Shown here in pieces: positions 23,605-53,900 of a DNA stretch of 64,000 bases. The DNA comes from Hysterium pulicare CBS 123377. Lineage: Eukaryota; Ascomycota; Dothideomycetes; Hysteriales; Hysteriaceae. Each line of letters begins with the position of its first letter. Position 1 is the first letter of the stretch. The stretch spans positions 1 through 64,000 of the forward strand of contig AJFK01001066.1 of assembly GCA_000467715.1 (NCBI GenBank), in the 5' to 3' direction. The notes under the pieces are model-generated. The model saw only the letters and a program-made list of their open reading frames with translations. It did not search any database and was not told the origin of the DNA. A program made the position numbers and the translations under genes.

Positions 23605-26600
23605 TCAAGCCAGGACTTCGCACATCGCTGCCTTCTTCTCTTCGTCTTCGATAAGGATACCTCTAGCTTGGAAGATCTCCTCAACGACCGTAACGACCTT
23701 GCGGAAGCTGGATGCGGCGCCGCGGGTTTGCGTGAAGCGAGCAAGGCAGAGGTTAGCGCGACGACCGTGGTCGAGGACGACGAAGAGCTCAATGACGAGG
23801 GAGACCGGCTTGATTTTGAGGTCTGAAAGAGAGGAGGTCAGTATCATGAAGACTAGACAATAGTTGCAGCTTGGGGTGAAACTTACGATTCGCCTTATCA
23901 ACTCTGGCATTGATAACATTCGTCTTCCGATCGTATGCTATATCACGTACGCCATAGTGCTGCCAATCCCGCAGAAGACGCACGATCTCGGCACGCGCCT
24001 TTCCGCGTGCAATTTGGAAGCACAAGACTCTATTTGCGGGTTTGATGTGCAAGAAACGGGAAAGCCAGTTCATCTGCATTTCGGCAGGACGGGCTCCATC
24101 TTCGGAGGCGGGTGCGAGGTCGAAGCCGGAAAGGAGAGAGGTGTTGCTTGGGTCTGGTAGACCTGTATCAATGTATCAGTAAAATAGCATTCGGGAAGAT
24201 GAGGAACGGATATCATGGAAACGTACATCCGAGACCTGCATTTCCTTTAGTCTTATCATCTTTCGTCTTCTTCCCGAACAACCCCAAGAATCCTTTTCGT
24301 CCGACGGTATCATCCACACCAATTCGCTTCCTTCCACGCATTGGGAACTCGCTGCTAGCGTCAGAGTCCTTCTTTGTATGCTTGGCTGCAGCTGCTTTCT
24401 CCGCCATGGTCGGCAATGGCCCTGTTTTAATGCGATCGTCGAGGCCCTGCCACGCTTCAGGAATTTTGAGCCTCGGCTCATTGTTTTCTTTATCTTGCTC
24501 CAGATCTTTATCGTTACCGTTTCGGCGGAACCAAGATGATTTCTTCTTCCTAAGATTGGCATTCTTATCCTTGTCCGTGGAGGCACCCAGAAACGGAGGA
24601 GCAAGCGCGCCGTCATGTGAGCGTGCAGCAAGAAGGTCATCATGAACACCTTTATATGACTTGAGAGTTACATTCGGGCCAGGCCAAGGCACTGTAACCC
24701 CGGCGTTAGCATTACCAGAGTGAGAAGAATTCGTGCTTGCACCACTCCGCTTACGAATATTGAGCGGCGCAATTGGAGTGGGCGATTGGTCGATGATCCG
24801 AATCGTCGTGGCTTGCTCGGTTGCCGATCTGCGACCCTGCAGTTGTGGTCTGAAACCATCAGTAACAGCTCTATAACCATCAACGTTATAGTCACCATAC
24901 CGATCATCTCCATCCAAGGGACGTCCTTCCTCTGAGATGACAGGCAGGCCACTTGGGTAGTCTGGAGACTTGGCAGGGGGGGCTGATGATGTGCGTTTGG
25001 CACCGGTATTGACAGGTTGCAAAAGGCGGTCAAGATGTTCAAGCACTTCATTGAAGTGACCGGTGTTGTCTGAATCTTCTGTCACCAAGCGACGAGCAAT
25101 TTCTTCACGCGTCTCCAAAAGCTTGCGCTGGACAAAGGTGTTTGGAGTCTCGTTCGGAATCGGTGGAAGTGGTCGATTCCGGATAGCGGCCTTGTCCGTA
25201 GGTGTCAAGAGCATACCACCAGACCCTCGGTTTGAGAATGAAGTAGGCGGGGTATCATACTCGAAAGGATCTCTGTTTCTGTCCGTGATAGATGTTCGAA
25301 TACTCGAGCTGATCGATGATCGATTGAACGCTTCTTCCATGACCTTCTCCAGCTCGGTGCTTACCTTGCGCGCCTCAGTCTGAATGTACTTAGTCGGACT
25401 CTCTGGCTGACGTATCCTCAATTTAGGAATCTTTGGACTCGTCGGAGGCTTGATTGAGCGTATTGGATGAACAGGGTGCGCTGTAGCACGCGAGGAAGAT
25501 GCTGACAGAGGAGTCGACAAATCTTGGGGGCGACGATTTAGAAACTTCCGCTGTTCTGGAGTATACTGAGGACCAGCCGTATCGTTCGTGTAGGCGCTCG
25601 CCGTGGAACTCCTACGGAGGTGTGTAAAACTTACACCTCGTTTGGCCATACTACTAGGTCGTACAATAACTGGAGGGCTGCTTGGCCATTGGGAGCTCAC
25701 AAGCGAGGAACGAGAAATCGAGCTCCGCTTGGCAGCCGAAGATCTGTGAGCCGGAGAGCTATTCTTTGATAGATGGCCTGAGATGTTAGAGCTGCGGTGT
25801 TTCGAATTTCTAAGCGTTTGGATTCTCAACGAACTTCCTTGACGGTGACCAAGAGCGGTGACTGGTCTCAATTTGCGACTTCCGCTCTCAGAACCTCGGT
25901 AGACCGTAACGTTCATATGTGTTCCTGGGCCAGGCATGATGGGGTCCCTCGAAGCGCGGAAAGGATCATAGCTAATATCGGAGGAAGGGGGTGGTTCATA
26001 GAAGCTATGTTTCGAGTACAAGTGTTCGTCGTTGAGAATAGAGAAACCTGACTGTGATCGCGTGTCTCGACTGGCACGTCGACGCGACAATTTGCTTGCG
26101 CTAGAGCTGGCAATATTCGCATGGTGATAATCACTGGCGGAATATCCAACTGCGGCTGGACTCGGGACATAGTTTTCCAGATGTTCTTCGCGATGCTTCA
26201 AAAGTGCGGCGTAGAAGTATTTCTCTTGGTTAGATCTAGGCGATGCGTTAGTGACACGTAAGGTCGCGAAGCGAACCAGGTTACTTACTCTCTATTCATT
26301 AATCTCTGTATAATAACCTCTTCTTTCTCACTATGCCAAAGAGCACGCATGTTCCTGAGGATTTGTCGATCCACAGTCTGTTTTGTCAAGTGTTCCCAAC
26401 TCTCTATCTTAGGTCGTGGGCCTATCCAAGCTTCTAATGATGAGTTTGGCCCCTGGAACTTTAGCTGGGCGTTGTACTTATGCAAGAAAGGGTGATTCCA
26501 GATGGCCTCGATACCTATACGTTGCTTGGGGTCAGGTACCAAGATGCGTCCGATAAGGTCCTTGGCCTCCATTCCAAGTTCATCAGGCATAATGTAATCG

Positions 26601-27722
26601 GCATGAGCAATGGCACGGAACAACTCTTTGAGATCCCGATCATCACCGGAATAGTTGAATGGAGGGGTTCCGGTGAGCATTACGAAGAGGATGACGCCGC
26701 AGCTCCAGACATCAGCCATTCCGCCGTCGTAAGACTTGAAGCAAATGACTTCAGGTGCGGCATAGTGAGGGCTGCCACACGGCGTGCTCAATTCTCTGCC
26801 TTTAGGCTGCAGAGCTGCCATACCAAAATCCACAAGCTTGATCTCGTAGGTCGATCTATCCAAAAGGATGTTCTCTGGTTTCAAGTCGCGGTGGTGTATG
26901 TTAAGCCTGTGGCAGTAGAATAATGCAGCAATGATCTGGCGAAAGAGATGGACAACCTCGATTTCATCTAGGCCTCCCTTCTCTGCTATGTAATGGAAGA
27001 GCTCGCCGCCTTGGACATACTCCATAATCAAGTAGCTAGTTCATTTGTTAGTCAAGGCTTGACACCAAAGTGTGGAGAGCTTACAGCTCGTTTCGATTCT
27101 CCCAAACATCATAGAGACGGACGATGTTGGGGTGTTCTAAGAGCTTCATAATCACGATTTCTCGCTCAAGGCCAAACGGGATGACCTTTCCATCAGGAAA
27201 CATAGACTGCTCCTTTTCGGCGGACTTGATGAGATTTGCCATGCTCAAAGCTCTGACCTTCTCTGCTGTTGCCTTTGAGATGATCTTTGCTGCACCATAT
27301 TGGCCAGTGGTGGAATGCCTTACGACTCGAACACGTGAGCAACCTCCACGGCCTATTGTTTTGCCCAGTTGCCAAGGGCCAATGTAAGTTTTGCGTCGAC
27401 GACCGGTACTGGAAGCATTGGTGCTTGCATTGGATATTTCGGAGTCGCGGTTTGGGTTATGGGAGTCATCGTTAGCGACAGCAGAGATGCGCTTGTTCTC
27501 TGGAGATGGAGACACTGGCTGCTGATGGCGAACGGCAAGGGTGCCATTCGGTACGAGAGACTCATTGTGGGGTAAATTGGCAGGCGAAGAAGCATCGATA
27601 TGCATGTTCGGCTTCGCTCCAGCTTGTTTTCGGGGTGCTGTGCCCTCATTGGCTCGAAATGTGGCATCAGTGAGAGGTCTTCGACGCGTCGGAGGACGCT
27701 CATGATTGGAGTATCGATCCAT
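23605..27722 (-). CDS. Gin4/Hsl1/Cdr2-type serine/threonine kinase with fungal KA1 domain
   Basis: Five exons (27722-27085, 27035-26289, 26235-24227, 24162-23887, 23822-23605) keep one frame over introns of 49, 53, 64 and 64 nt with good branch sites, giving 1295 aa. The glycine loop GRGGCSRV is at 124-131, the ATP lysine K146 (AAKII), the catalytic HHRDLKPEN has D263, DFG begins at D282, and the activation segment is CGSPHYAAPEV. A Ser/Pro-rich disordered middle follows (about 480-1140). The last two exons form a lipid-binding fungal KA1 domain (KPANRVLCFQIARGKARAE, then SFRKVVTVVEEIFQARG). In yeasts these kinases sit at the bud neck or cell cortex, recruit septins and relieve Wee1 inhibition of Cdk1. 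It looks intact. The leader is notable (see findings). Confidence 0.93.
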
Positions 27723-28354: not shown

Positions 28355-29400
28355 CGCATCTTGTACCTTTACCAACACATCTCGTTGTCAAGGCTAGGTC
28401 ACATTTTCATCAGGCAGAGTGTGGCCTTTCACGACATGCTTGAATGGAAACTGAGTCCATCGTCTTTCTGCAGTCTTACCAAGGGCACGATGCAAGAGTC
28501 GTGTGTCTCACTGCGGTGGAATCTGCTTGCCACGAGGGGCGCAGGCAAGGGATGAGACGAGGGAGGACAGCGCCAGAAGCACTCTGGAAGCATCACGAAG
28601 TGTCACCACTTTTCGCATTTGAAGCCCTCGCTGCGAGTCGCGCGGAGCGTAGAGTGGCGTGGGAACGAGGTTGTGGTGGTGGCTCGTGAAGTGGTGAGGG
28701 AGAGACGAGCTTTGTCGGGGAAATTTCTCTTGTGACAAGGGCCGGCTTCCCAGGTATTTCGGTACCTACTTTGGTACAGGTCACGGGAAGATCCCGCATC
28801 CAACCCCCAACAACTTCCACCTCTTCACGTTCCTAGTGTGCCACTCCAAATCTCCGGCATTTACGTTTTCTATTGTCTTCTCGTTCACAAACCAACATCT
28901 CAGTGCACAATGTGTGGCAGGGAAGACAGGACATATATTCATATCGCGGTATTCGTAACCCTTTTTACCCCGTCCCGCCACGTCTCGAGCAGTACAATTT
29001 ACGCCGAGCAGGAGGCTGCCAGATGAACCCATTACACCTGTTTCTCCAAATAGAAACCTGAAGGAATCCCCATGATCATACCTGATCCCGATAGCGCTGG
29101 ACATGCGATATGCATGAGCAAAGAAAACAGACCGTACAAGTAGGAAACGAAAATGTCACCGAGAAACTAAGAGGTATCCGCTTCGAACAACAACAGCAAA
29201 TCAACAACAACTCACGCCTTTACCAGGGAGACTCCGACCCCATGATCCAGTAATCCACATTACCATAAATCCAATCGTGGAAGCAAAAAATAAGAACAGA
29301 GAAAATATCGCAGCCCTAGAAGAGTATAGAAAAGAAAAAGTAGTTAATACAGATCAAAGAGAATTGAAGACGCAATTTTGGGAATGCTCTACGCGTTGCT
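28355..29400. other. Intergenic region upstream of the kinase leader
   Basis: Bounded by the kinase leader and the 3' end of the flbC-like gene on the same strand. It probably contains the kinase promoter and the flbC-like terminator. No supported gene. Confidence 0.4.
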
Positions 29401-30829
29401 CTATGCGTGGCCGGATATTATCGGTTTACGGTCAACCGGCTCGTCGACGGATGTGCTTTTGTTCGTTGGGGATAGGCTGCCTTCGTGCTTTTCGCCATCG
29501 CCGCCAGCGTTTGCTTTTCCGCAGCCTTTGACAAGGATATGTCTCTGCAAGTTAAGTTAGCTTCGTTCATCTGGATATGGGTTGTTTCCCAAAACGGACC
29601 TTGAGCGCGTCTTTTCGCGAAAAGCTCTTGTCGCAATGTCCACATGGGAATGGTTTTACAGCCAGGTGAATCCTCTTGTGTCTCTTCAAGTCATGGTTAC
29701 GGTTGAAGCTTTGCGGGCACTGATCGCACTTGAATGGCCGATCGTTCGAAGCTTGCTGCTGCTGTGGGTGGTGTCCAGCAAACATGTGTGGCATTTGAGC
29801 TGCATGTCCACTATTGAAACCGTGCATCATGCCATGTGGCATTGCGCCGACAAGATGAAGTTGACCGTTCGGATTGCTGACATTCGACAAGACTGGCCCA
29901 GGCCCAGGAGGCATGTATCCACCAAAAGGCCGTTGATACGGATGTGGGGAGTGCGATGGGGCAGAGGGTAGTGATGGGATAGGACCTTGGGTCACATGTG
30001 GCGACATCCTTGACATCTGTCCACCTGCGCTAATGGGACTCTGCTGGGTGGGCGAAGGGCCCGTAGAATAGGGGAACGAAGACTGCTGGGGCGTGGTAGA
30101 AGGCTGCGAATTGTAGTAAGTCGGCGTTGGAGGCTGTCGTTGCCCGTGATATTGCTCATGCGCATGGACAGGAGATGGTGCGGTTGCTGAGCTGGAAACA
30201 GGAGTTTGCGCATTCATCATGGCATGATGCTGCTGCTGTTGCTGTTGCTGCTGCTGCTGCTGTTGTTGTTGTTGATGCTGATGTTGTTGTTGCTGCTGCT
30301 GGGCAGACATTGTCGGAAGAGTAGATGGCGCTCCCATCGACCCAGAGTACGAAGGTAGGTGCGAATTCAGCTCATACGGTGGCGGAGGAAGCCCTGTTCA
30401 TATGTGAGTAAGGAATTTCTGTCAATCGTATCATCGCTTGGTTGCAAACACACCTCTTGGTTGGCCATACGAGCTCTGTTGCTGAGATTGAGTTGGATAA
30501 CCATACTGCCCGGATCCCTGACTTGATGGAGAATAGATGTACTGTTGGCCATTTGAAGCGTATTGATGCATCGCCTGCGTCGAATTTGCGCTGCTCGTGG
30601 TCACCGGGCTCATCACATCACCATTAAGATTGGTTGGAGGAGTGAGCAAGTTCCCGACGCTCGCAATAGTCGTAGGGGCTTGCGATGATTGCGTTGCGTT
30701 CACCGTGTTGAAAGACGAGTATTTGTGCATAGGGGGCGGAGGGAGTTCAAAATTTCCCAGATTGGCAGCGTTTGGCCTCCTGGCTGCAAAGCTGGGAGGA
30801 GCACCCATTGGGTCGGGCCCAGGATGCAT
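29401..30829 (-). CDS. flbC: FlbC-like C2H2 zinc-finger transcription factor
   Basis: Exons 30829-30454, 30393-29600 and 29544-29401, with introns of 60 and 55 nt, give 437 aa from the first available ATG. Two zinc fingers near the C-terminus (RPFKCDQCPQSFNRNHDLKR, then PFPCGHCDKSFSRKDALK) are followed by RHILVKGCGKA, whose codons start exactly at exon 3. The second finger is C2HC-like and split by the intron. This finger pair is what I recall for FlbC, a regulator of conidiation and early development in Aspergillus. The remainder is Pro/Ser/Gln-rich and contains a polyglutamine run. The frame is open for a further 67 codons upstream (to 31030) without an ATG and includes plausible coding (FVASPLHSLPTPPSSD), so the true N-terminus is unresolved. 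Confidence 0.8.
30229..30303 (-). repeat. CAG/CAA microsatellite encoding polyglutamine
   Basis: On the gene strand a run of CAG and CAA codons encodes about 27 Gln with two His interruptions within the flbC-like protein. The mixed codons suggest some age. Length variation between strains would be expected. Confidence 0.85.
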
Positions 30830-32190
30830 CTGAGTGGGATGAGCCACGGCAGCAGCCACGTTGGCGGTTGTGTTCTGTGAAGGGCCTGATGGCCTACCAG
30901 CGTCAGATGAAGGAGGAGTTGGAAGTGAATGCAGCGGCGACGCTACAAATGGCGGACTAGAAAAGTTCACGCCAGGCCAATATTGCCCACGCGAAGACTG
31001 GGAGTGATCCAGGAAGGGCGAGAAAATGGCTCAAAGCCAAAGCGCGAAGGTCAAAGTGGTTATGGTCGTGAAGGACAAGACGCTGATGAAATACAGGCAA
31101 CGGCAAGCAGTACTCTTGCAAAATCCTTCTCCTGTCACAGAATCTCAACGATCTTAATGTTCGAGGATGGTGTTCCCGACTTGGTCTGTCGTCGTTCCCG
31201 AAGGCGGCAGCTACTCCGAGGCTGGAAATGGATTCAGTAATCGAATGGTCTTGACGATGGTACCTGCGCAAAGGTTGGCAGACAGTGATACCGACAAATG
31301 CACGCCTCTCCAGAAAGTTTCTAGAAAGTCTCAGATTCTATGCAAGATCAGTGGTTGCTCGTACTCAAAGGGTCGAGCGAGGAGGGCGCACAGGAGATCA
31401 AAAACAGATGCAAGTGACACGATGTCCCCTTCGGACAAAAAAAGAGGAGTTTGGTAAGGCCCGGATTCCTGGTTGCGCAGACGCGGTGCTACTGGTGTGG
31501 TAGCACAGGCTGTGAGGATTTTGGTTTTTGGTAAAGAGGTTGGACTTTTTGATATGGCCGTGCTTGAGGAAGGGCTCCGGCGATCACCACACTTGCTGGG
31601 AACAGCGTCCGGGAATAGCTTTGGCTGGTGGTCCAAGGGCTGGAAAAGGTTTCCCACTTCTCTCCTGCTAAGAACGGAGGTGTTCCTGGGTTCTGATGTC
31701 CACAACAGAGGCGCTGGATAACTTGAAGTCGCACGTAGGTGGTGGTGGTGGCCCACGAGAGAAGTGCTGCTTGACGCCGACGAGGTGAATGGTATCTGGA
31801 AGAGATGGTGCAGATAGTGGGCGTGCGGGCAGTGGCGATCCCTTTGTTAAGCTCAAGTTCCTGGGCGCCCTAGGAGCAATGGCGGAGAGGGAGGCTGGAC
31901 TGTCGCTGGCCAAAGGCTTTTGTCGCCAGGTGTGGGTGGAGAAGTGGTGGCCGTCACGTATATGTACGGCAGGCTAAGAAGGTCAAGGTTTGGGGGTTCG
32001 CGTGGCTGTCTGGCCTGCTAGGGGGGGATCACGGCCAGCAACCAGGCGATAGGGTTCGTCCGAGCTCCTGGGGATCTGGATCGGGGGAAGGGTGTGTGAT
32101 GGGGAGGCGTGAGATGAAGATTTGAGCGCTATTCACACACGCACTTTGACGCAAGAGGGCAAAGCAGACGAGCACGGCAGAAGCAACGCT
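30830..32190 (-). promoter_or_regulatory. Candidate 1.36-kb ATG-free 5' leader of the flbC-like gene
   Basis: Reading the plus strand line by line, the triplet CAT (ATG on the gene strand) is absent from 30830 to 32190, whereas ATG on the plus strand is common there. CAT reappears at 32191 and becomes ordinary from about 32370. Loss of ATG on one strand only is the mark of selection against upstream starts in a transcribed leader. Long leaders are known for fungal developmental regulators. No transcript evidence is available here. Confidence 0.6.
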
Positions 32191-35100
32191 CATAGATAAT
32201 AACCAAACTCGGGCAGGGCAAGGGTGAGGGCAGACAATGCACGAATTCCGGGATGAAAGCACCCAGACCCTGTCGGCTGGCCTTCGGAGTCGCTGGCGTG
32301 CGGGACGGCTTGGACCAGTGCTTTGGCTAGAGTCGCTTGTGCCGGGCCGACCTGGTCAAAGGAAGATCCCATAGAGAATAGGACCTTCATTATTGTTCAC
32401 CTTCGCGTTCACTGACATCGGCTCCAGCTACAAGGATGGGCTCCGGGTGGGCGCGTGGAGAGCATCAAAGACAGGCATATCAAGCTCGCCGACTACAGCG
32501 GGTACTGGGCGAGACTTGCGGCTCCTGACCCAGGTTTGCGGCGCTCGACAGGCGACAGGCAGCAGAGAGACAAAGGGCTTTTGTTTTTCCAAGTACCAAG
32601 GGTGAGGGAAGAGGCGCCAAAGCCACCCCACTGCACGGTCGCGGTCTGGCCTCTAACCTTGCCCGCGCCTGAGACAAAGCGCAAAGCACAAAGACTCGAT
32701 CTCCCGCGCCCGCCGTCGTCGAAACGCAGATCGCTGAGATTGACACCTGACGGACTCATGTCATCGCAAATTGGAGGAAGACGACGGCGAGATGAGCAGT
32801 GCGGAATAGAGTTTCCCATCGCGCTGTTAGCTGGGCAGTGCGCGGTGAGATGCAGGCTGGAGCGTCCGTCTGCAAGTGTGAACATGCTCCATAAGCTCTC
32901 TGAAGTCAGTCATCGCTTCTACGCACAAGCAGAGCGACAACAGCAGAGAGCGCATTCGCGAAAGCAGCTGGACAGGGCCTTGTCGGCCCTGCGGTCAGTG
33001 CTTGCAGACCAATACTTGACCGTGCTTTGACATCTCTGGCCTGGCGGGACTGACATAGCTCGCACTCGCAGCTTTTTCAGGTTGGCGGCGCGCTAACCGA
33101 GTACGAGGCTATTTACTGCACATGATTTGACATTATTCGACTGGAACCTCTGTATTGACTCTGAACAAAGAAAGGCGCTTTTCCGCAAGCTCCAACTGAA
33201 GCGCTGCGGTTGGGCGTAGGTTCCAGAGTTCGGCTCGTAGTTCGGGATCAAACCGTATTCTGTCATCGGCGCTCTCGCGAATCGCCAAGCAATCAATCTG
33301 AGCAGCACTCATGTTGTTCAGCCCTCTGTGCCGTCAATTGCGGGCAGATTTCTGGCCCCCCCAATCTTGAATGTCTGGCTTGTCTTCTATTTTTATACAG
33401 GATTATATTGCTGCTGCACGTGTCTTTCCCAAGGCGGCTGGTGTGAGCAGGCATCACTCTTTGTCGGCGATCAGCCAAAGTCCTTGTCGCAGACCGTCTT
33501 CCTGTCCACCGTTCGGCCCCAGCATAGTAAGCAGATCTTCCACGTGGACGGGCGGTGGATTCGACGTCTTCGCTCCAGTCGTCGCAAACTCTGCTGGACG
33601 CGCAGGATTAACTTTCGGCTCCGTCTGCATTCTGGGCCTGTAATTCGCCTGGCAGGTGCCGTCGGCCTTTTGCAAGGGAGCACGAGGCGCCCGTTGGTCC
33701 TCGATGACAGTTGGCGTGCCCGAGAAGGCCGCTGTTGGAGAGTGGTTGGTGCTTCGTGTGCGTCCAATGCATCGCAAAGCAATTACCGACTGCCTGGTTG
33801 CGGGCTGAAGCTCGCGCAAGACGGTCTGGGAACTGGGGTCATTCTCCACGGTCGATCCAGACGCCTCTCGAAGCGCCCCTGCAAGAGGCTGCAAGGAGCC
33901 TGCATGTCACATCCCGCGAGCCTGGAGTTGTGCTGGGTGTCCGTCGTGCCGCTTTTCTCATTGCGGACTGCTGCATCCCTGGGCTCATTGATACATGACA
34001 TAACGAGAGATCTTAGCCGCAACCGACGACGCACTGCACACCGAGTCTGCTGGGACTTGCTCCCTCTGTGCCGGCGCCGGGCCCGGTATGGCGTTCCAAT
34101 GTGGGACCAACCCCTTGAGGACCGCCGCCGTGGTTTTCGCCGGCATGGGGAGTGCAGCAGTGTTGAAAAGCTGGTGCTTCGCCGCGACAGTCGACAGAGA
34201 CACGGGTTTGTCCTCCAATCTCGCAAAAACAGCGTTAGAACTTTAGCACCGGGGCCAGATGAACGAGACACACCACCCTTCGCAGCTCTCGTGTAATCTG
34301 CGTGTGCTTCGGTGCTAGGGGCAGCATCCTGGGCCCAAGTCGCCAATAGGGCGTGCGGATTAGCGAGCCGTCAGAAATCATCCGAATCGCCAGCACCAGT
34401 CAGCCTTTTCCGGCATGGCTTCCCGCCGTCCCCTTTGCGACTCGCTCGACAGCTGCCCACCCTCCCCCTGCATCGACTTCATCTCGCAAAGGGCCTGGCG
34501 GTTTGGGCACTGCGTTCTGCCTTCTCCCCCATCACACCACCCCAACCAGGCCGTCGCGAGTCGCTATCGTGCAGCGGACTGTGTACCCCGCCATCGAGAG
34601 ACGTTATCCGTATCTCAACACCTATAATTATCGTCGTACGATGATTCCGGATAGGGCCCGTTGGCATTGGCAATTGCTAGTGAAGGCACTGCCTCTTCCG
34701 TATGTTCACGGGCACTCATCACATCTCTATCTCGTCTTCCAGATCGCCCTGATCATCCCGGGCGCTCGAGATCACGGCAAAGCAAGCATTGCTGAAGTCG
34801 GAGCTCCCGATAGCTATAACGTGATTTGCCCATCGAGCCCTTGTCCGACGGCTGGCTGCGCAGCTTAATCTTGACACGGATCGCCTGGGTGTTTTGGAGA
34901 GAGTGGAGGGAGCCCAAGACATCACAAGCCTTTCCTCATCCGCCCCTGGGCACTCTCTTTCGCTTTGGATCCGCAGCGGGATGCTCTTGGTGATGCTCGA
35001 ACCGACCAAGCCCGATCCATCACCTCGGGACTCAAAATGCAGGTGGACGGTAGGCCTCTCAGGCTCTCCCCTATCTTTGCGAACAGCCCCATGGCTCCGC

Positions 35101-38100
35101 GGGCTGGCGGCGGCCACGTTGTGAGCCTCCACCATCGACAGGGCCACTGGACGAGCCATCATAACTCAGAGCCAACATCTCATCGTCTCATCATCCAGAT
35201 CTCTCCCATCCACGCCCACCATCAAGGCCGAACCGAACTCCAATGAGAGTTGCTTTTGCTGATCCTGAACCTGTCTTGGCCCTTGTCGCGACTGAAGCTT
35301 GTCTGACATCCTTGCGGGCCCTCTCATACCTGGTTGAGGGATGGATGAACGCGCACCTTCGAACAAGATGCGACTAAGTGCACCCCACGTCCTTGAAATG
35401 TGACTTTTATCTCTCGCAAACCACTCTTGTGTGTGATGCGGGCTGCAACAGGCATCGTTTACGGCCGCCCACCAAATCAATAGTGTCCATGACTTCTGCG
35501 TTAGCAAGGGGCTCCCTCGCCAAACCCTGCTGTGTGCTGAAAGAGACATCTTGCGTCAAAGCACGTTTGGGCTTTTTGGCTTTTTGGCTCCCGCTGAGGC
35601 TGCCCATCCGCGTGAACCTTGTTCTCCCCAATACCTAGGTAGTCCCTCATCGCGGCTCGTCCTACCTTCCGCTCTACCTTTTTTATCGCGAGAGGCGTCG
35701 TCGGCTTTTTTTGATTGGACCATGTCTGTATGTATCTGACTTCGAACAACAGATAGGGCTTCTTCCAGCTCAGCCGCGGACAATGCCATGTGAATGCTCA
35801 TCTCCCGTTTTCGGAAAATTCCTTATACAATAGATAGGAAGAGAATCTAGAACCATGTCGTTTTGTTGATATCTCTCAAATAAGTCCTGCATAAGCTAAT
35901 GTACTGAAATATGGCTTGTGCAGGTGTAGGAATGCCCTTCCGGCACATCCACGTCGCTGGATGACTTAGTTCTTCTCACCATTTCGTACCTGCATCCGCG
36001 TCGTGATTTTGGACAAATCCAGGAGTCGATGGCATGCGCCAACATCTCAAACATTGGTGACGATCCCGCTGATCAGTGTCCATCGCTCCCTGGCGTCACG
36101 TTGAGTGCCTGGTGTGGGCCTCCTGCCCATCCTTTTCGCGCCCGCTGGGCTGAACGCCAGACGATAAGCCCCTGTTTGGCGTCGGCCTGGATTGTGCAGA
36201 TCATGAGTGCGGCGAATGGACTCCCTCGTCAATAGAGACATCAATTGGGTCGGTAAGACGTTCGTGATAAAGGAAATGGAATTAGGTGTCTCGGTCGTCT
36301 TCGTATGCTGAGCCGCAGACTAAACACTTTCACGAGGAACTCGAAATCTTCAATAAACAGTATCCCGATTCGTCAGCTCGCAAACTCCGTAGCGCGCGCT
36401 AGGTATTGCTGAAAAGATCAAGCTGCAGAAATACAAGACGTTTATTCATCGTCTATTTGCCGTTCACGAGATCCCATCATCACCGTGCTCAAGTTGGATG
36501 TGCTGGCCATCGATACTATTCGTCCTCACGGGCGCGAGGTGTGTTGGATGACCCTTTCCGTGTGAGCACAGCCTCGACCAATCTCTTCAATGTTTGACGG
36601 TTTTTCGTGCGTACAATGTTCATTGTCTGCCTTCCCTTCAAAACTCCACCAATAACGGATCCCGAACTCGAGGGATTCCCGACGATGAGAACCGTTCCTT
36701 TCTCTACTCCCCGCAACACGGCGTCCCTGGTGATTGCCTAATGGCAGATTCCTACAAGTCATCTTCCTGAATCTCTCTTTCCTGCACGTCATGTTTGCTG
36801 GTCACCGGGAGAGGCGTATATGGTCAGACATCAACCAACGATGCTCGAAGGGTTATCTCGCTCACTAACGACGGCTCACTCAACCCGCTGCACCGCAAGC
36901 ACGCTCGGAGTTAGAAACTTCTGTGCATGCTGACCGCAGTAACTCACGAGAAAAGACAAACCTGGGCTGCGTAACCGCTGTCACTACATTGCTGCCTTCC
37001 GAAATGAGTCTGAACACTTTTCTCTATGCGCTTCGTCTGTGCCTCACATGAATGTCTATCACATTTCGATATCTAATCCTTCCTGTACACCTCTCACTCC
37101 TCCAACAAACAAGCGCTCGTCGTACGAGACAAGTGCCACACTCTATTGGCGGAATGCTAATAATAACCCACATCAACTCACCTCAATCCCCCCAACATAT
37201 GCGCCTCAAGCTCCCGGCCCCCCGTCGAAACGCCTCACAAACCCGAGAACCCGGGTTTCCACAAGCGGCAGCTTATTGCTTACGGCGCTGACAGCGTGAA
37301 CCACGTGCAAAGCATGAGCATCGCGAAAACAGCCGGCATATTCCAGGAATTTGCTATACTGCGTTCTAGGGACGGTTAGTTCTGATTCGCACCTACGGTA
37401 GACAGGCCGCTGTATGTAGGGGTCATATCCAAGTCCGTCTGACATAAGGCGCGGATCCTGCGGGTGGACATGCTATATGTGCGACTTGGCCTTGTCTAGT
37501 GATCAATGCCCAAGTCTAGTATGTAACGCGGCCTTGTTCTCACCTCAGAATTCGGGCGATAGAGTGAGGAGGAGGGTTGCCGAGGCGGAGTGGTTGTGGA
37601 ATCATAGTCTTCTTCGCGTTCGGGTTGAGTCACAGGGGTATCGCCTGGACGCTTTGTCGCCTATTTCTCTATCTTGACCTAGGTATTGCCATTTACTTAT
37701 TCGGGTGTTTTGGATAGCCGCAATAGTGTACGGCCGTTAGTATTCAGTCCTTCGCATTACTCATTGCTCGACACAGCTGATGCTAGGAAAGCGGCCCCCG
37801 CAACAACACCGAGAAACAACATACTCTCAGAAAAGCATAGGTTCTGCGATCAGAAAGCATGCAAGTGGTTTACGATAGGTGAAGAGATTCATTGCGCTAA
37901 TATGACCTTGACGAATAGAATCGCTATACCTCCACGCACTCAATCACCAATACCTCGAAGTCATCCAGCTTCAATTCCTGTCGCCCTAGTTCCCTTGACT
38001 ATATCTCTCCGCCAAGGCGATCGCTTCGGTTTAAACCACTTCATGTTTTATCTTCTCTCTAAGACCCAAGACATGGCCAACGCGCGCTGGCACCATTCAA

Positions 38101-38500
38101 CTACGGCACCCAACCGACGCGACTCAACGACGACGATCGTTCAACCTGTGAAGATGATATGTATCCGGTTCTGAACGTTAAGCTTAGAGGACATATCTTC
38201 GATATTCTCGTAGATTTGACATGAATTAACCGATAACATTAACTCGATCAGGAACTCCGAGGCCTCCTTCAGTCAGCTTTCGGCCTCCGACGCTCTTCAA
38301 AGCCCTAAGACGCTTTCGCAAACCTAGCCACACAGTCTGGTCCTTCAGTATCCCAATACACTATCGTCTCTAGCGGTATTTTAAATCCATACAACTACTC
38401 GCCATTACCGTATGCAGTTCACAAGTTAAACACAATATATATCCTGAGAAAACTCCTTTGCAATCTATGCTCTACGAGTAGTCATTCCTTCCGCAAGTTC
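32191..38500. other. Gene-poor region
   Basis: Many overlapping frames occur on both strands (the longest 322 aa at 33328-34296), but none shows codon texture, motifs or intron logic, and they overlap opposite-strand frames of similar size. The part from 32.2 to 35.7 kb is GC-rich. Its first few hundred bases may hold the flbC-like promoter. No repeats with clear ends were recognised. Confidence 0.5.
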
Positions 38501-40273
38501 ATCTCCTATGCGCCGCTCCTTCCCGTGACTCGCGCGATGTGGCGGTCAACGGACGCCATTTGCCCGTGACTCCACGATTCCATGATATAAGAACCTGCTG
38601 CAGGTCCAATTTCTTTTCCTTTTCCACAAACAAGATTTAGAAGGGCTTCCATGAGCAGATCAACTCTGGTTCCATGGCTGCCATATGCGTCGAGGAGAGC
38701 CCCGAAACAACCTACCAACCCCCTATTATGAGACTCAGTGCGGACCATAACGCATTACTTCAGCTTACCTATGGTTGGTGGTTGGGACTAAGGGTAACAT
38801 GAATCTTTAAGCTTTGATCTTAGTTGGCGTCATTTCTGGTCATGAAGTATCCTGTTCTTCATCTATGCGTCAAGCCACGATCATATTTATGATCCGATGA
38901 CGATCATCATCGACTCCCGCGTTCCAGCATAGAATCTTCATCTCCCAGCGTCTTTTCTCTCCCCATCCCCACTTCCACTCTCTATCATAAAGAGTGTGCC
39001 ATGAGTAGTTGACCGCATACAACGTTGCCATGCATGTCCTTTTGATTGCCTTGCGGCACGCACCACTTCCGGACCATGGTCGTGGCGTCGTCGGAGTGCT
39101 TGAACAAGAAGAGGAAGGAGAGCCCAAGTATTACTCTCTTTGAACGATCCACAGATGGAATTCCCTCTCCAAAATACCCCCATTGTTTGGTTTTGGCGTC
39201 CATTTGAGTACCGCCGCAGAAAGCGGACTTGGTTTGTAAGTGAGGAGGAAGACGTAAGGAGAAGGGAAAAGAGAGCTTTTATAACTTGAGGGTTGTGGAT
39301 GTACACCGCGTTTCACTGCTTACAATGACTAACCATCTTACTTCGGCAAATGAGGCACCGGTATCAGAGTTTGGTGGACAGCAACGGTGGGGTGAAGAAA
39401 GAAGTTCGAAAGTTGGCGCAGGAGGGCTTTTATATCTGGACTGACCGCCCATTCAAAGTATAGTATGGCTGACCATCTGCACTCTACGTCAAGATACCGA
39501 GCGCACGTGATTGAACCCGAGGACAACTTCTATAAAGATCTCGAACATCACATTCTTTCTTGCGTTACGATATTCTCTGGATTTGCAACCCGGCGCCGCG
39601 ATTTTCGAAAATTCGAAAGCGGCCCGGGGGGTGATCCTTGGTTCTGGGCCTTGGAGAAGCGGAGCTACAATTCGAGATCGCCTAGAGCTATGGGGTGTTT
39701 GCAGCTGTGTTCAGCCGCGCTACGGAAAGAACTTTATGGGCCGCCTCCGCAGTCGTTTTCAAAGACAGCGAAGTAGACATTCATGGGATTGAAAATCTGA
39801 GATGTGGCCTCCCTTGCTCTACAGCTTTCATCAGGCTTGTTTTCGGTGCGGCAGTCTCCAAACAATCGGAAACTCTGTCACGCTATGGTCCTTGGCTCGG
39901 GGTTTTCGAGGAGCCAAAAACAGAGCAGCTGGGCAGTCATGTGTCTTTCTGGGGACGTGTTCAACCAATATATGCGATGGAAGATGATGGGACTTCCTGC
40001 GGTCGCGTTCGAAGAGGGCGGAGGAACTGGACATGGGGTGAGCATCGGAAATACGCTATTCGTTCACAGTTCCCGGATAGAACTGATTCTAGGAACTGGA
40101 GACCTTTGTCAACTTCTCTCCACGATCTACACCTCCGCAGATGAGGAATGATCATCGCCATCATTGGCCCTTCTTCCTTCCTTCCTCCTTCTATAACCAT
40201 TCCTCTCCTGCAATTCCCATAAAGTGTTGATCAATAAGTGGCAGTTTCACACCCGGATCCAGACACCTTGCCG

Positions 40274-40700
40274 AAAGCTCTGCCGCCTGCGGACCCAAAG
40301 ACACACCACCACATATGAGTTTGAGAGTATAAGAATTTAAGAGTTTGGTTCAGCGAACATAATGTGTATCTGATGTCCCGTAATAGAATCCAAAAACTCG
40401 ATTCCGACAGACCTGACCTGAATAACCAGGATGCAAATCATGTCTCCTCAGCATGCCAACGGCTTGAAGATCCGAGGAAGATATGATCTCCACCATGAGC
40501 CATTTGGCCAGGAGTTTTGTCATAGTGAATCGTCAAAGCTCTGCCGCTTGCGAAACTAAAACTCATCCACTCCATGAGACTCTACGTTCTTAGACTTTGG
40601 TCCAGCGAACATAGCTCCTTCTTACACTCCCATGATAGAACCATACGGACTAGTTTTCTGTCCTTCCTCGACTCGACCACTGGGACGCAACCCATCGTTC
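40274..40700. repeat. Diverged direct duplication, two units about 261 bp apart
   Basis: AAAGCTCTGCCGC is exact at 40274-40286 and 40535-40547. Similarity continues about 150 nt downstream of each with gaps, including TTTGGTTCAGCGAACATA against TTTGGTCCAGCGAACATA and later CGTAATAGAATCC against CATGATAGAACC. It looks like an old segmental duplication. Confidence 0.6.
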
Positions 40701-41304
40701 CTTAAATTTTCGCCAATTTGATGGGCTAATGGATAGCTGAGTTCCCTCTGACCCACCAGCCCACGGACCCAGAAATTTGCCGGAGGCGTTCAGCTGATTT
40801 AGTCCTGTCTAGGATGTAGGAGTATGTGGACTGTGAAAAAATGAAAGTTTGGTCGGGGAAAGATGGGTTTATATAGGCAGGTGGGCATCTCGACACCGTG
40901 TTTAGATTAGCTAATACCGCTCTTTTTAGGACTGGATGTTTGAAGGTTGCCTCTTCTTCGATTGGATTCGTGGCACATGTTATTCGGAGACGAGATCTCG
41001 GCAATCAGCAGCATCTTCTTGAAAGCTGCGATATGTGATGGAGATGAGTATTGATAGATTTTTCCATTAATTCACCCACTACAATCTTCGGCGCTTCTAG
41101 TCCTCCTTAATGATGATCGACATCATTATCGCGCCACGACCTAGCCCTCCACCTTCAACTGCACCCTTCGCAGCAGCCTTAGCAGCGATCGCCACTCCAG
41201 ACCACATAGCCCTTTCTCCTCCTAGTTATTCTTGAACTCTATCGAAAAACCAACCCGACCCTCTCTCCAACCATATGCGGAGACTGGTATGCTGTTATGA
41301 TCTT

Positions 41305-41720
41305 CCAGCTCAAAACCACATCATGCCAACCGTCCTCGCGAATCTGGCAAAGACTCCGAGAACAAGATAGGGAACTTCTCCATCAACATTTGAAAACATC
41401 CATCGAGCCAATCCAATCACTCCACCCGACATGAGGATGGCGGTAGAGAGTTTATGACTTTCCAGCTCGCAGGCAACCACACCGCACATTTCTCTTACAG
41501 ATTGGCGAAGTCTCCAAGTGACACCATAGATGTCCACAATGCAGGAGGATGGACTACCCATTCCCACCATGACTCGAATGAAATTACTCGCTTCTCCGCA
41601 CCTGCCAGAGTATGTAGGACTGATTTTGGTCATGGTTACTGGTGGTTTCGACTTTCGAAGCACATCACGCCGGTCATGGTGGTAGATTTGGCAAAGACTC
41701 CAACAAACACCATGGACTTT
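41305..41720. repeat. Three diverged direct repeats of about 160-185 bp
   Basis: Related blocks centred on CTGGCAAAGACTCCGAGA (about 41345), TTGGCGAAGTCTCCAAGTG (about 41504) and TTGGCAAAGACTCCAACAA (about 41688) recur in the same order with similar flanks (TTCCAGCTC at two of them). On the minus strand they translate to repeated segments such as LVLGVFARFARTVGMMWF and MVFVGVFAKSTTMTGVMCF. They may be remains of a tandemly repeated coding unit. Confidence 0.45.
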
Positions 41721-42477
41721 GTAAGGCACCAAGGTGAACGAATAATTCCCGTATTGAATGAGAGGTTTTGTTGGCAGCTCCGAGCATGTGGGTAGAGTGA
41801 GAGATACCTGTCATAAGAAATAGCAAATGCCACTTCTGGTCCACATGCAGCGGTGGAATTTTCGCAGTTGAGGCAGCTCGCATGCGAGGAGAACGATGAC
41901 TTTTGTGATGGCTCAAAGTTCATCGACTGATGGTGGAAGGGGGAAAAAGAGGTTAGGGGCGGGAGCAGAGGGTTTTTATATGTTTGGGAGGGTGCCGTAA
42001 GTCGGCGGAGAAAGCGGTGAGTGAGCTTCCTAGCGAGTCCCGTGCCTTTAACGTTCAGGAGAATCGTGTTCTTGCTCTCATTTCAAGATACATGGCGGCA
42101 AGCTTCTATACTTCGAGTGTGGATTACTAAACTGATTCATGGGTAACTTCCCCCAGAACTGCAATGTACGCTTTTCGGTATCTAGAATACGCCCGGTTCC
42201 ATTTCTCAAAATCCATTTGAGTCACAGTAGATGGCATTTCATATCGTTCAGATAAGGAGGTAGATATTCAGATATGAGAGAGTGATTAAGACGCTTTGGA
42301 GTTGGAAAGATTTCCTGGTGATGTTCAATGATGGTGGCAAGAAGAAAGGCGCTTCAAATGAATGAATCGCGTATTCGGGGAATGGGGGTATTTCAAGCCA
42401 CACGGTGGCATAGGAGCTACTGGCCGCACCTCCAGCTCAGAACGAGAGATCTCTCGCCCATGCCAGTATTCCTAACA

Positions 42478-43536
42478 TCACATATCTATTTCCCCAGCAG
42501 AGTATTCAATCTTAATACCAGCCTCCATCCATTTACTCCTCTCGAACTCCGCACTCATTAATCCCGGCCACTCCCACGGCACCCTAACCACAAAACTACT
42601 TTTGGGTTTGATCCTCTTGAAACTTTCTAAAAAGTCCTCTTTATCTGTAGCTGGCTCAATGATTCTGCGCGTGAGAGTAATTTCCAGATCGCTCAAGTTC
42701 TGCATATTAGTCAAAATAGCACATGTTTCTTTCCAACATGAAGATGTGAGCGGGAGATCGGGTAGATGACAGTATAGATGTAGCGATCGTATTGCGTGGA
42801 AGCGCTCCGGAAGAAGTGAAACGGAGAGGAATGCGAGGACGTCTAGATGCTGTATTATGAAAGTATTGGTTGAATATAAAAGTGGAACTGCCTCCGAGTA
42901 TATGAGTCGGCAAGTCCTGAGCAGCGAGACGAGTCGCGTGGAATGGTAGTCCAGCAGTCCCGCATCCGCAGAGACTTGGGTGTAAGTAATGCATTTGTGG
43001 AAGGCGCCAGTTGAGGGGGTTCTTCCAGTGATAGGGCGACCCGTACACAGCGTATTGCTAGTAAGGTCGTTTTCAATGGAAATGGAATCCGTACACAGCG
43101 TATTGCACAAGCGGTGTTTTTGCTGAATAAGATGGATCCCGTTTCGCCCGATCGCATACCCCCATATCATGTCTCGAACCTCGCGTGGTAGGCGTCTCAG
43201 AGGCGACTGAAACTGATCACATGTCCGCTGCCTAGAATCAACAGGTAGCTGTAAAGAGAGGCGACGAGGACGTGGTGAGCGAAGTTGGAAAAAGGGAAGC
43301 GCTTCTTCCCTGGAGCGATTCCTTTCTGCCTCTTCTTCTGCTTCTCTCATTTCTCTCCATGTTGGATGATTCGGGTGGGATGGATAATGGTTTGGCGGCG
43401 GTGCTTTCTTCCCTTCGAAAAGCTCTTGACATAGAACGATAGGATAGATGAAAATAAAGACTGGGGGATAGATGAAGATATAGACGAGAGTCTTCTTGCA
43501 ACCTTTTCTTATCCTTGGATTCATGTAGAATGTCAT
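42478..43536 (-). CDS. DUF7730-type fungal protein with N-terminal membrane segment
   Basis: A single exon of 352 aa. The start is basic, then a hydrophobic helix (VYIFIYPPVFIFIYPIVL, about 18-35), an acidic and basic linker, and the domain beginning SPLRRLPREVRDMIWGYAIG and including LLRTCRLIYSEAVPLLYSTN. Those motifs are typical of DUF7730, a large fungal family with an F-box-like beginning and unknown function. The hydrophobic helix followed by 'CQELFEGKKAPPPN' is common in this family. A second Met at residue 5 could also start it. An internal repeated NTLCT segment is noted separately. The gene looks intact. Confidence 0.75.
   Translation of the reverse strand: MTFYMNPRIRKGCKKTLVYIFIYPPVFIFIYPIVLCQELFEGKKAPPPNHYPSHPNHPTWREMREAEEEAERNRSREEALPFFQLRSPRPRRLSLQLPVDSRQRTCDQFQSPLRRLPREVRDMIWGYAIGRNGIHLIQQKHRLCNTLCTDSISIENDLTSNTLCTGRPITGRTPSTGAFHKCITYTQVSADAGLLDYHSTRLVSLLRTCRLIYSEAVPLLYSTNTFIIQHLDVLAFLSVSLLPERFHAIRSLHLYCHLPDLPLTSSCWKETCAILTNMQNLSDLEITLTRRIIEPATDKEDFLESFKRIKPKSSFVVRVPWEWPGLMSAEFERSKWMEAGIKIEYSAGEIDM
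43042..43107 (-). repeat. 18-bp direct repeat within the DUF7730 gene
   Basis: CCGTACACAGCGTATTGC occurs twice about 16 codons apart in the same frame, giving NTLCT twice in the protein (LCNTLCTD and SNTLCTG). It is probably a small in-frame duplication. Confidence 0.7.
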
Positions 43537-50992: not shown

Positions 50993-53900
50993 ATGGAAGC
51001 ACTCGCTGCATTTGGTGTGGCTTGCAACGTAATACAAATTATCGAATTCAGCAAGAATACGGCTGTTCTCTGTCGACAAGTCCATAAGCAGGGTGCGTCG
51101 TTTGACCATTTGGATCTAGATGAAAGGTCCAAACATATCTCAAGGGCTGCCGAGGGCGTCCAAGAATGGCTTGACCGGTTGGCGAAAACACACAAACGTT
51201 TGACTACCACGGAGTGCCAGCTTAAAGACCTTGCCGGTAAATGCATCAGCACAGCAGACGATCTTCAGACTCAACTCAAAAGGATTGAAAGAGGAGACCG
51301 CAAAGGTTGGCTTGGCACTTTGAGAACGACAGGAAGAATAATGAGGAGGAGGACGGCGATTGAGGATATTGAAACGAAGTTGTCTAAATATCAGAGCAGC
51401 CTTCAAACTATGATAACGGTTCATATGAGGTACGAAATCGACATTTCGAATGTTCCATTGCTTTGCTATTACTGTTTCGCTCATTTTTATAGTCGAGAAC
51501 AGGCAATAGTGATCACGAAGCAACAAGATCAATTTCGGGATATGGATGACTCGCTGAGGATTTTCATTCAGAGAATTTCCGAGGGCCAAACGGAGATATC
51601 TCAGCTCGTGAAAGCGGACGCTCTTGAAATGCGCCAAATAGTTGCAAGGGAAGGCCGCGATACCCGGGAGCATATCGCTCAAGGGTTTGAGGGGTTGAAA
51701 GCAGACCGAGCAACAGAAGCACACCGAGAGCGCTTACTGACTAGTCTAAAATACCCCGAAATGAATGAGCGAAGGAACAACATTACAGAAATCCACACTG
51801 GCACTTTCCAGTGGATATACGACGATGTCAAGCACACCTTTGCAACTTTTCTCAGAACTGAACAACCCATGTACTGGATTCAAGGGAAGCCAGGTTCAGG
51901 GAAATCAAGCCTGATGAAGTTCCTCCACGAGAACATCAGGACGATGGAGGCGCTAAAGAAATGGAAGATGGGAGAGGATCCCGTTTTGCTCTCGTTCTTC
52001 TTCTGGCTCTCCGGCAGTCCTTTGCAGAGGAATTTCAAGGGGCTCTGGTGCTCGCTGCTCTTCCAACTGCTTACGGAAAACTCGCGAGTGATAGTTCTAC
52101 TGCAAGCTCAACGCCAAAGCCTTCTCGGAAAGGAATATCTTGCAGATTGGTCTCCAAAGGAGTTATTCGAAACATTCGTTCTGGCAGTAAACCTTTTGTC
52201 CCGGCCACTATGTATCTTGCTCGACGGGCTTGACGAATACGATAAGGATGAGGATGTTTCAGATCTTCTTCAATGTATTCGGACCCTTTCATCGATACCA
52301 CACATAAAGCTCATTGTCTCAAGTCGACCAGAGCTTGAACTAGAAAGGTCATTTGGCAAAGCCCAACAGATGAAAGTGCAAGATTTGACCGTGCAGGATA
52401 TCAGGAAATATGCGGACGATCTTCTCCGAAGGGCTGTCGTAGAGGCCGACCTTGAAACTATAGGGGACCACGAGATCTCGGTGCTCGTGAATATGATAGT
52501 ACGGAAAGCCGATGGGGTATTTCTTTGGGTTTCGTACGCCCTAAAAAGCCTGATGAGTGGTCTTATCGAGTGGGAAGGCTGGAATGAGTTACGCGACCGC
52601 CTAGACGAATGTCCTAGCAAAATCCAGGATTTCTATCAGCAAATGTGGAATCGATTAAACAATAATACGAAGCGCGACCGCGAAGAAGCAGCCAATTACT
52701 TTCATTTCGTGATGCTAGGGAGTGCAGGTTATCTGCATGAACACTACTACAGACCCAGCGACTTAATAGTTCATCAGGGCGATCCCTGTGCCCTTTTAAT
52801 GTTGATGCTCCGGTCGAACGTTTCTCTTAGAGATAGAATACTTGATCAACAAGATGACATTAGTTGGAATGAACTGCTCCGGAGTTGTCGACAAACGGAG
52901 ATACGATTGAAAGCTCGATGTGCGGGTCTAGTGGAATTCTCTGAACCTCTTAGTCCACCGCAGGTAGAGACTACCAAGAGCAACGACTCGCATGACGTCC
53001 AGTCCTATTTAGGAAAGTCAGCAACTTTTATACATCGTAGTGTGCGCGATTTCCTCGTTGACACAGAGACCGGGCAAGAAATATTAAGTTATTGTAAGCT
53101 ATCAGCTGACGAAAGACTGATGGTATATACCATAGTGCTTACAGCATCCTTACTTCTACGGGACCGGCCTATCGTTCGTGTTGATTTCAGTAGAGTTCGA
53201 GATCTTTTGTGGCCACTTCGTTTACTCCACATGCAAAACTGCCCCACCGATGCACTCGTTCAGACCATGAACGTATGCATCACTGCATTCCAACGTGCGC
53301 TCACCAAGGAAGGGAAACAATGCCCTCTGGACGGATGGAACTTCCCATTGACAGATTTTGAAAAACCTCGTGGTCAGTTTGCCTTGTACAGTAGAGATTT
53401 TGTTGCTATGGCGGCTACCTATGAACTTGAAGCGTTCATCTCGGCCTACATCGAGCAGGTTGGGCGTGGGCGAAGACTTACGTCGTGGTACAGGGCTCAT
53501 TTGCTTATATGCAGCTCAACATTGACTTTGTTCAATCAAGACGCGGTTTCTCAGACTAGCCAGTTTGAGCGTATACAGTCGTATTTGGATGCAGGAGCGG
53601 ACCCGAACTTCGGCCAGTTCTACCAGGCACAGCTGCTGCCATGGTGGCGCGGAAACGACCAAGTTGACTTTACCTATGTTGAGCTTTGGGCGACCCCATT
53701 TTTGACATTTGTCAGAGAGAGATTGGTAGAGGAACTGGGGTTTAGGAACCAACCCCTCTGGATCAGTACGTTGGACAAATTTTTAACCTGTGGCGCAAGT
53801 CTACAACAACGTCTACCCGTGGCGATATCCCTGACGAAGAAACTTTCTGTCTTTGGGGGAGTAGTAGATGGCTACTTCCAGAGAGAAGAAGCGGTGGTCA

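Follow-up and report, generated by a model that had tools for sequence, protein, structure and literature searches.

Why does more than a kilobase of DNA ahead of a fungal regulatory gene contain no ATG on the strand of that gene, and where would translation of such a gene begin? The question is raised by a 64-kb window of the Hysterium pulicare CBS 123377 genome (the whole stretch of DNA analyzed here, positions 1 to 64,000 of contig AJFK01001066.1, to which all coordinates refer unless a locus is named).

The Regulator Gene and Its Surroundings

The gene lies on the minus strand, and its product is a regulator with a poly-Q tract and two C2H2 zinc fingers, encoded by exons separated by two predicted short introns:

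30827-30829, minus strand: first ATG downstream of the ATG-free interval, in frame with the zinc-finger protein
30454-30829, minus strand: coding exon 1, counted from the first ATG (gene model, predicted splice sites)
30394-30453, minus strand: predicted intron 1, 60 nt (GTGTGT...ACAG)
29600-30393, minus strand: coding exon 2, with the poly-Q tract and the C2H2 fingers (Pfam PF00096 in two stretches and PF13465, above cut-off)
29545-29599, minus strand: predicted intron 2, 55 nt (GTCCGT...TTGCAG)
29401-29544, minus strand: coding exon 3, in which the second finger is completed and the stop codon lies (gene model)

The poly-Q tract consists of CAG/CAA repeats at 30220-30310, in exon 2. The form read from the AUG at 30829 has 437 aa, and an N-terminally extended form would have up to about 500 aa. 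An earlier, sequence-only reading of this DNA had named the gene flbC-like; FlbC, a developmental regulator, also has two C2H2 fingers according to the portions of its descriptions consulted here (PMC9031332, PMC10950988). A second two-finger family of similar length is that of the cutinase G-box binding protein/SEB-1, for which the sources, available in part, give 575 aa (SEB-1) and 535 aa (FsCGBP).

Relatives were searched for in prokaryotic, viral, and plasmid collections, and no fungal orthologue was among them. A 199-aa query of the regulator found no relative in viral contigs, and a query with the zinc-finger region found seven loci there, at 21 of 57 residues, which are not orthologues. 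The GTDB contigs contained no relative of the regulator, NCBIfam gave no match for it, and the best 60 of 167 matches among PDB sequences were zinc-finger proteins of other kinds. A text search of the literature for the finger motif returned no paper.

The regulator is followed downstream, also on the minus strand, by a protein kinase gene (26285-27722), in which PF00069 positions 75-263 are matched in 26285-27031 and the ORF at 27081-27722 probably carries the start of the kinase domain. Upstream of the regulator, a stretch of about 8 kb (34300-42478) is without any ORF of at least 200 aa and is possibly a large regulatory stretch. Elsewhere in the window are two NACHT/NPHP3_N STAND proteins, both with DUF7791 (1312-4209 and 50993-54436, plus), and a HET-domain protein (6965-8653, minus); these STAND and HET genes are of the fungal NLR/heterokaryon-incompatibility type.

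A Sense-Strand ATG Desert

Two consecutive CATs of the plus strand lie at 30827 and 32191, with none across 30830-32190, which leaves the minus strand of this interval, the gene strand, without any ATG:

30830-32190, minus strand: ATG desert, 1361 nt, flanked by ATGs at 32193 and 30829; 0 of 20,000 shuffles are ATG-free
32191-32193, minus strand: first ATG upstream of the desert, opening a 54-codon upstream ORF if transcribed

The sequence-only reading had pointed to this interval, and its limits proved exact, with gene-strand ATGs only at the two flanks. Its remark that ATG is frequent on the opposite strand also held: the plus strand of 30830-32190 carries 25 ATGs, that is, 25 gene-strand CATs (the reverse complement of ATG) where 22.3 are expected, so the depletion affects the sense strand only. 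The number of ATGs that it expected on the gene strand, about 21, had to be lowered because this strand is C-rich (462 C, 326 T, 287 A, and 286 G within the desert); base composition predicts 14.4 and dinucleotides predict 13.4, against 0 observed. No ATG-free outcome appeared in 20,000 dinucleotide shuffles of the interval (mean 13.4, minimum 4).

The corresponding gap of 1364 nt is three times the second-longest CAT gap of the window (452 nt), in which 1256 CATs were counted in total. No gap exceeded 716 when the whole window was shuffled 500 times, or 877 when 500 shuffles were made in 1-kb blocks. A count of all 64 triplets, which the sequence-only reading had proposed as a check, gave the desert as the most extreme gap of any triplet in the window (26.8 mean spacings vs. 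15.8 for the runner-up). It is also the longest ATG-free run on either strand in a genome sample that combines the window with twenty 10-kb stretches of this genome (264 kb, of which 260 kb are distinct, one 10-kb stretch repeating the last 4 kb of the window); the second longest, 1025 nt (L006, 401-1426), lies in AT-rich DNA at 19% GC.

The near-cognate triplets CTG, GTG, TTG, ACG, ATA, ATT, AAG, and AGG are undepleted over the whole desert (z from -0.3 to 2.4). ATC is raised (31 vs. 18.8 expected), but with the AT count held fixed and ATG absent the other ATN triplets must go up, and we set this excess aside as an arithmetic consequence of the missing ATG rather than a separate signal. Because the loss is limited to AUG, it implicates scanning ribosomes rather than general composition.

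The desert gives way precisely where the gene has its first in-frame ATG, a coincidence that the sequence-only reading had overlooked. The second and third ATGs, at 30808 and 30730, are likewise in frame and the earliest out-of-frame ATG is at 30624; hence there is no out-of-frame ATG from 32192 to 30625.

An Open Frame without ATG at the End of the Desert

The interval splits in two, with about 1.1 kb containing stops in the three frames followed by about 200 nt in which the coding frame is open. The latter part had escaped the sequence-only reading as well:

30830-31030, minus strand: 67-codon ATG-less in-frame extension, stop-free, with an amino-acid composition like that of the rest of the protein
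31031-31033, minus strand: in-frame TGA bounding the extension, read from the sequence

With the remainder of the protein as the reference composition (minus the fingers and the bulk of the poly-Q run), the extension obtained +0.06 per residue, whereas the other two frames obtained -0.62 and -0.60 and the 235 overlapping stop-free 67-codon windows of the leader reached a maximum of -0.11. When the 201 nt were shuffled 20,000 times with dinucleotides preserved, 7,399 of the shuffles contained no stop, and the score of the extension was matched by 26 of those. None of 520 stop-free 33-codon windows elsewhere in the desert attained the mean of the 34 in-frame ones, and of the 7,824 stop-free windows of a wider sample, in which true coding windows were included, 5.4% had a score as high. 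By this amino-acid composition test, which was picked after the sequence had been seen, the protein-like character of the extension has moderate statistical support. A codon-usage score trained on 44 ORFs gave no separation of coding from non-coding sequence, the certain exons of the gene also being near zero. These compositional data suggest that the last 200 bases of the desert are probably already coding, with a start other than ATG.

A simpler explanation is that the entire 1.3 kb is an AUG-purged leader and that translation starts at AUG 30829 alone, the upstream frame being untranslated. No AUG precedes this one on leaving the desert, and by the standard of the genome its context is unremarkable (34th percentile of 44 ORF starts), so nothing compels the use of a near-cognate start. 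Sixty-seven stop-free codons are not rare by themselves in such a C-rich strand, as the 7,399 stop-free shuffles indicate, and the leader has another frame open over 171 codons with no codon-usage coding signal. What this explanation leaves aside is that the extension resembles the protein in amino-acid composition, a likeness not seen in the leader or in the other two frames, and we regard it as a tentative alternative, rather less than evenly probable.

If, as we prefer, the extension is translated, several near-cognate codons within it are candidate starts:

31025-31027, minus strand: AUU, with G at -3; context at the 9th percentile of 44 ORF starts (poor)
31010-31012, minus strand: CUG, with G at +4; context at the 55th percentile
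30968-30970, minus strand: GUG, with G at -3; context at the 20th percentile
30857-30859, minus strand: GUG, with A at -3 and G at +4; context at the 98th percentile, the best of 11 codons scored

The last of these sits just 10 codons upstream of AUG 30829. A marked downstream hairpin was absent at four of the five starts examined (z from -0.9 to 0.8, mononucleotide shuffles), and a modest one was found downstream of GUG 30970 (z -2.2, mononucleotide shuffles).

Composition of the Predicted Leader and Predicted Transcription Start

Upstream of the extension, the excess of C over G on the gene strand (C-G) delimits a putative leader:

31034-32126, minus strand: predicted 5' leader; upstream end placed at the change point in C-G and plausibly anywhere within about 32034-32190

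The change point at 32126 (bootstrap quartiles 32034-32172, 5-95% range 31633-32444) was equaled in strength by 1 of 5000 block shuffles, and C-G is +0.137 downstream of it (32126-31034) versus +0.011 upstream, which gives some statistical support to a leader-like composition and to its upstream edge. In the same genome, the last 100 nt before 43 of the 44 long ORFs have a C-G of +0.111 and 11.4 ATG/kb, and the sequence 700-1400 nt upstream of long ORFs (29 and 24 ORFs) has a C-G of about 0 and 16.6-18.5 ATG/kb; the ORF starts used for these figures are first in-frame ATGs, not mapped starts, and they are the same without the 4-kb duplicate. At the regulator gene, the C-over-G excess extends over about 1.1 kb. 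Because the coding exons of the regulator are C-rich too (C-G of +0.090 and +0.120), the edge marks the onset of gene-like sequence and is not by itself proof of a leader.

The edge of the desert at 32190 and the composition edge at 32126, with its bootstrap quartiles of 32034-32172, are in agreement. If the leader has been purged, the ATG-free run would overhang the transcription start by chance by about 51 nt on average (1256 CAT per 64 kb), which would put the start at about 32.04-32.19 kb. This position fits better than the 32.2-32.5 kb of the sequence-only reading, which is too far upstream because the ATGs at 32193, 32372, 32390, and more would then fall inside the leader.

Possible introns were also sought inside the predicted leader. 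Three GTVNGT donors and six donor-branch-acceptor combinations of 65, 69, and 402-466 nt are present; the combinations are weak, and introns are not needed to account for the desert. The most folded 150-nt piece of the predicted leader, one of ten, is at 31441-31590 (minus strand; z -2.9 vs. 60 mononucleotide shuffles).

An AUG for the extension could also be supplied by splicing from upstream, with ATG 32193 as the start, a donor GTGCGT at 32144, and an acceptor AG at 31031-31030, most of the desert then being a 1115-nt intron. The donor motif exists and the junction would be in phase with the extension. However, an intron gives no reason for ATG to be absent from one strand, the two modeled introns of the gene are 60 and 55 nt, the acceptor is GAG rather than the usual CAG or TAG, and the 16 residues that would be added are, by eye, hydrophobic and unlike the remaining protein. 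We consider this arrangement improbable.

A cause at the DNA level or on the antisense strand, either a promoter or regulatory sequence or a plus-strand product that happens to avoid CAT, would be in keeping with the pyrimidine-rich stretches that fungal promoters usually have. Against it, the only plus-strand ORF of at least 100 aa within the desert has 103 aa (30929-31240), no Rfam match was obtained in 29400-33500 at E values up to 1, and the loss of ATG halts exactly at the coding start; such a cause seems to us slightly less credible still. Lastly, an accidental scarcity of ATG in a C-rich, G-poor strand (462 C vs. 286 G, which brings the expectation down from 21 to about 13-14) can hardly be entertained, since none of the 20,000 interval shuffles and none of the 1,000 window shuffles (500 whole, 500 in blocks) matched the desert and no other triplet of the window has a comparable gap.

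A purged, transcribed leader, as the sequence-only reading had proposed, is therefore still the best reading of most of the interval, given the ATG-specific loss, its end at an in-frame ATG, the scarcity of ATG just ahead of long ORFs in this genome, and the leader-like C-G. The proposal does not extend to 30830-31030, where the coding frame continues open and the sequence is probably not leader.

A Model for Initiation at the Regulator Gene

The explanation that we favor, and to which we give marginally better than even standing, combines a purged AUG-free leader of about 1.1 kb, an AUG-less extension with a near-cognate start, and AUG 30829 as a further start. The two-finger C2H2 regulator gene would be transcribed leftward from about 32.04-32.19 kb, and its messenger would have an unusually long leader, about 1.1 kb, purged of all AUGs by selection, which would let scanning 40S subunits get to the coding frame. 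This frame opens at 31030 and continues for 67 codons without AUG. Initiation at one or more near-cognate codons (AUU 31027, CUG 31012, GUG 30970, or GUG 30859) would give the extended form of up to about 500 aa, and ribosomes scanning past them would initiate at AUG 30829 and give the 437-aa form.

A stronger version would make the near-cognate start the source of the main product, the leader of more than 1 kb being kept AUG-free for that purpose and AUG 30829 providing a shorter second form. We regard this version as possible but rather unlikely; were it true, the ratio of the two forms would respond to start-codon stringency (eIF1, eIF5, and eIF2 phosphorylation).

Other ATG-Free Runs in the Genome

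Selection against upstream AUGs is general, and 5' leaders of eukaryotes, fungi among them, are depleted of such AUGs, with an observed/expected ratio below 1 in all fungi examined, according to the portion of PMC7889888 consulted. The leaders described there and in the consulted part of PMC7049704 resemble the one predicted here in the loss of AUG upstream of the coding start. A difference is one of extent: ahead of 44 long ORFs in this genome, AUG-free runs reach 600 nt at most (median 74 nt), and the 1.36-kb desert is far outside this range.

Across 43 sources (327 kb distinct; L001 and L037 were excluded as repeats of the window, and five loci because of overlap), runs of at least 300 nt lead into an ATG opening at least 150 codons in 11 of 57 cases, compared with 539 of 12,002 shorter runs (Fisher p = 4e-5; 539 of 12,181 before removal of the 4-kb duplicate). 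The 1364-nt desert is itself outside the 11, since the ATG after it opens only 132 codons, corresponding to the first exon and read-through into the intron. Five of the 11 runs have no stop in this frame over their whole length and another has none over 84% of it, whereas in the remaining five the frame closes within 30% of the run length. With 5 of 11 runs inside coding-like open frames, we do not argue from this count that purged leaders form a class.

The five leader-like runs measure 600, 464, 451, 318, and 307 nt. Six of the 11 ORFs were scanned against Pfam, with a match in three (F-box/LRR, C2H2, and bromodomain/SnAC) and none in the other three. In the F-box/LRR gene (L003, 140-2857, minus), a 600-nt ATG-free run abuts a 705-codon ORF whose frame closes 17 codons upstream, and this run looks leader-like. 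In the C2H2 gene (L022, 1285-2479, minus), a 559-nt ATG-free run abuts an ATG opening 211 codons that include the fingers; since no stop interrupts the frame over the 203 codons preceding this ATG, the whole run falls within an open frame devoid of ATG, which may represent either another AUG-less extension or an exon, the gene then being spliced.

Comparison with Known Systems

Neurospora and Cryptococcus leaders are described, in the part of PMC7049704 consulted, as long and AUG-rich, and it is against this description that the predicted leader of the regulator stands out. The closest parallel for the extension is CPC1, whose frame, in the sections of PMC5487733 consulted, reaches a long way upstream of the AUG, without a further in-frame AUG, in every Pezizomycotina homologue analyzed, and in which near-cognate codons initiate translation in vitro; IDI-4, with a proposed CUG start, is cited in the same paper. 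CPC1 and the protein studied here are alike in being regulators whose frame runs upstream of the first AUG without in-frame AUG and with near-cognate codons. They differ, as judged from the same sections: cpc-1 leaders carry two AUG uORFs, the extended frame running through the uORF2 region, whereas the regulator gene has no AUG from 32192 to 30830; and the extension comprises 67 codons here against at least 160 in CPC1 (PMC5487733).

LUTI-type yeast messengers, as presented in the consulted parts of PMC5655150 and PMC7049704, are similar in combining an unusually long leader with a developmental gene. They repress through upstream AUGs (PMC7049704, same part), of which the leader predicted here has none. 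A literature search made mostly without subscription papers found no paper combining flbC with non-AUG initiation and no statement on an AUG-free leader for this gene.

Significance

If the preferred explanation is correct, an AUG-free leader of 1.1-1.3 kb would offer a strong natural test of the scanning reach of 40S subunits and of selection against upstream AUGs. The extension, for its part, makes a concrete claim about this fungal regulator, namely that a gene model starting from the first ATG (30829) would omit part of its N-terminus.
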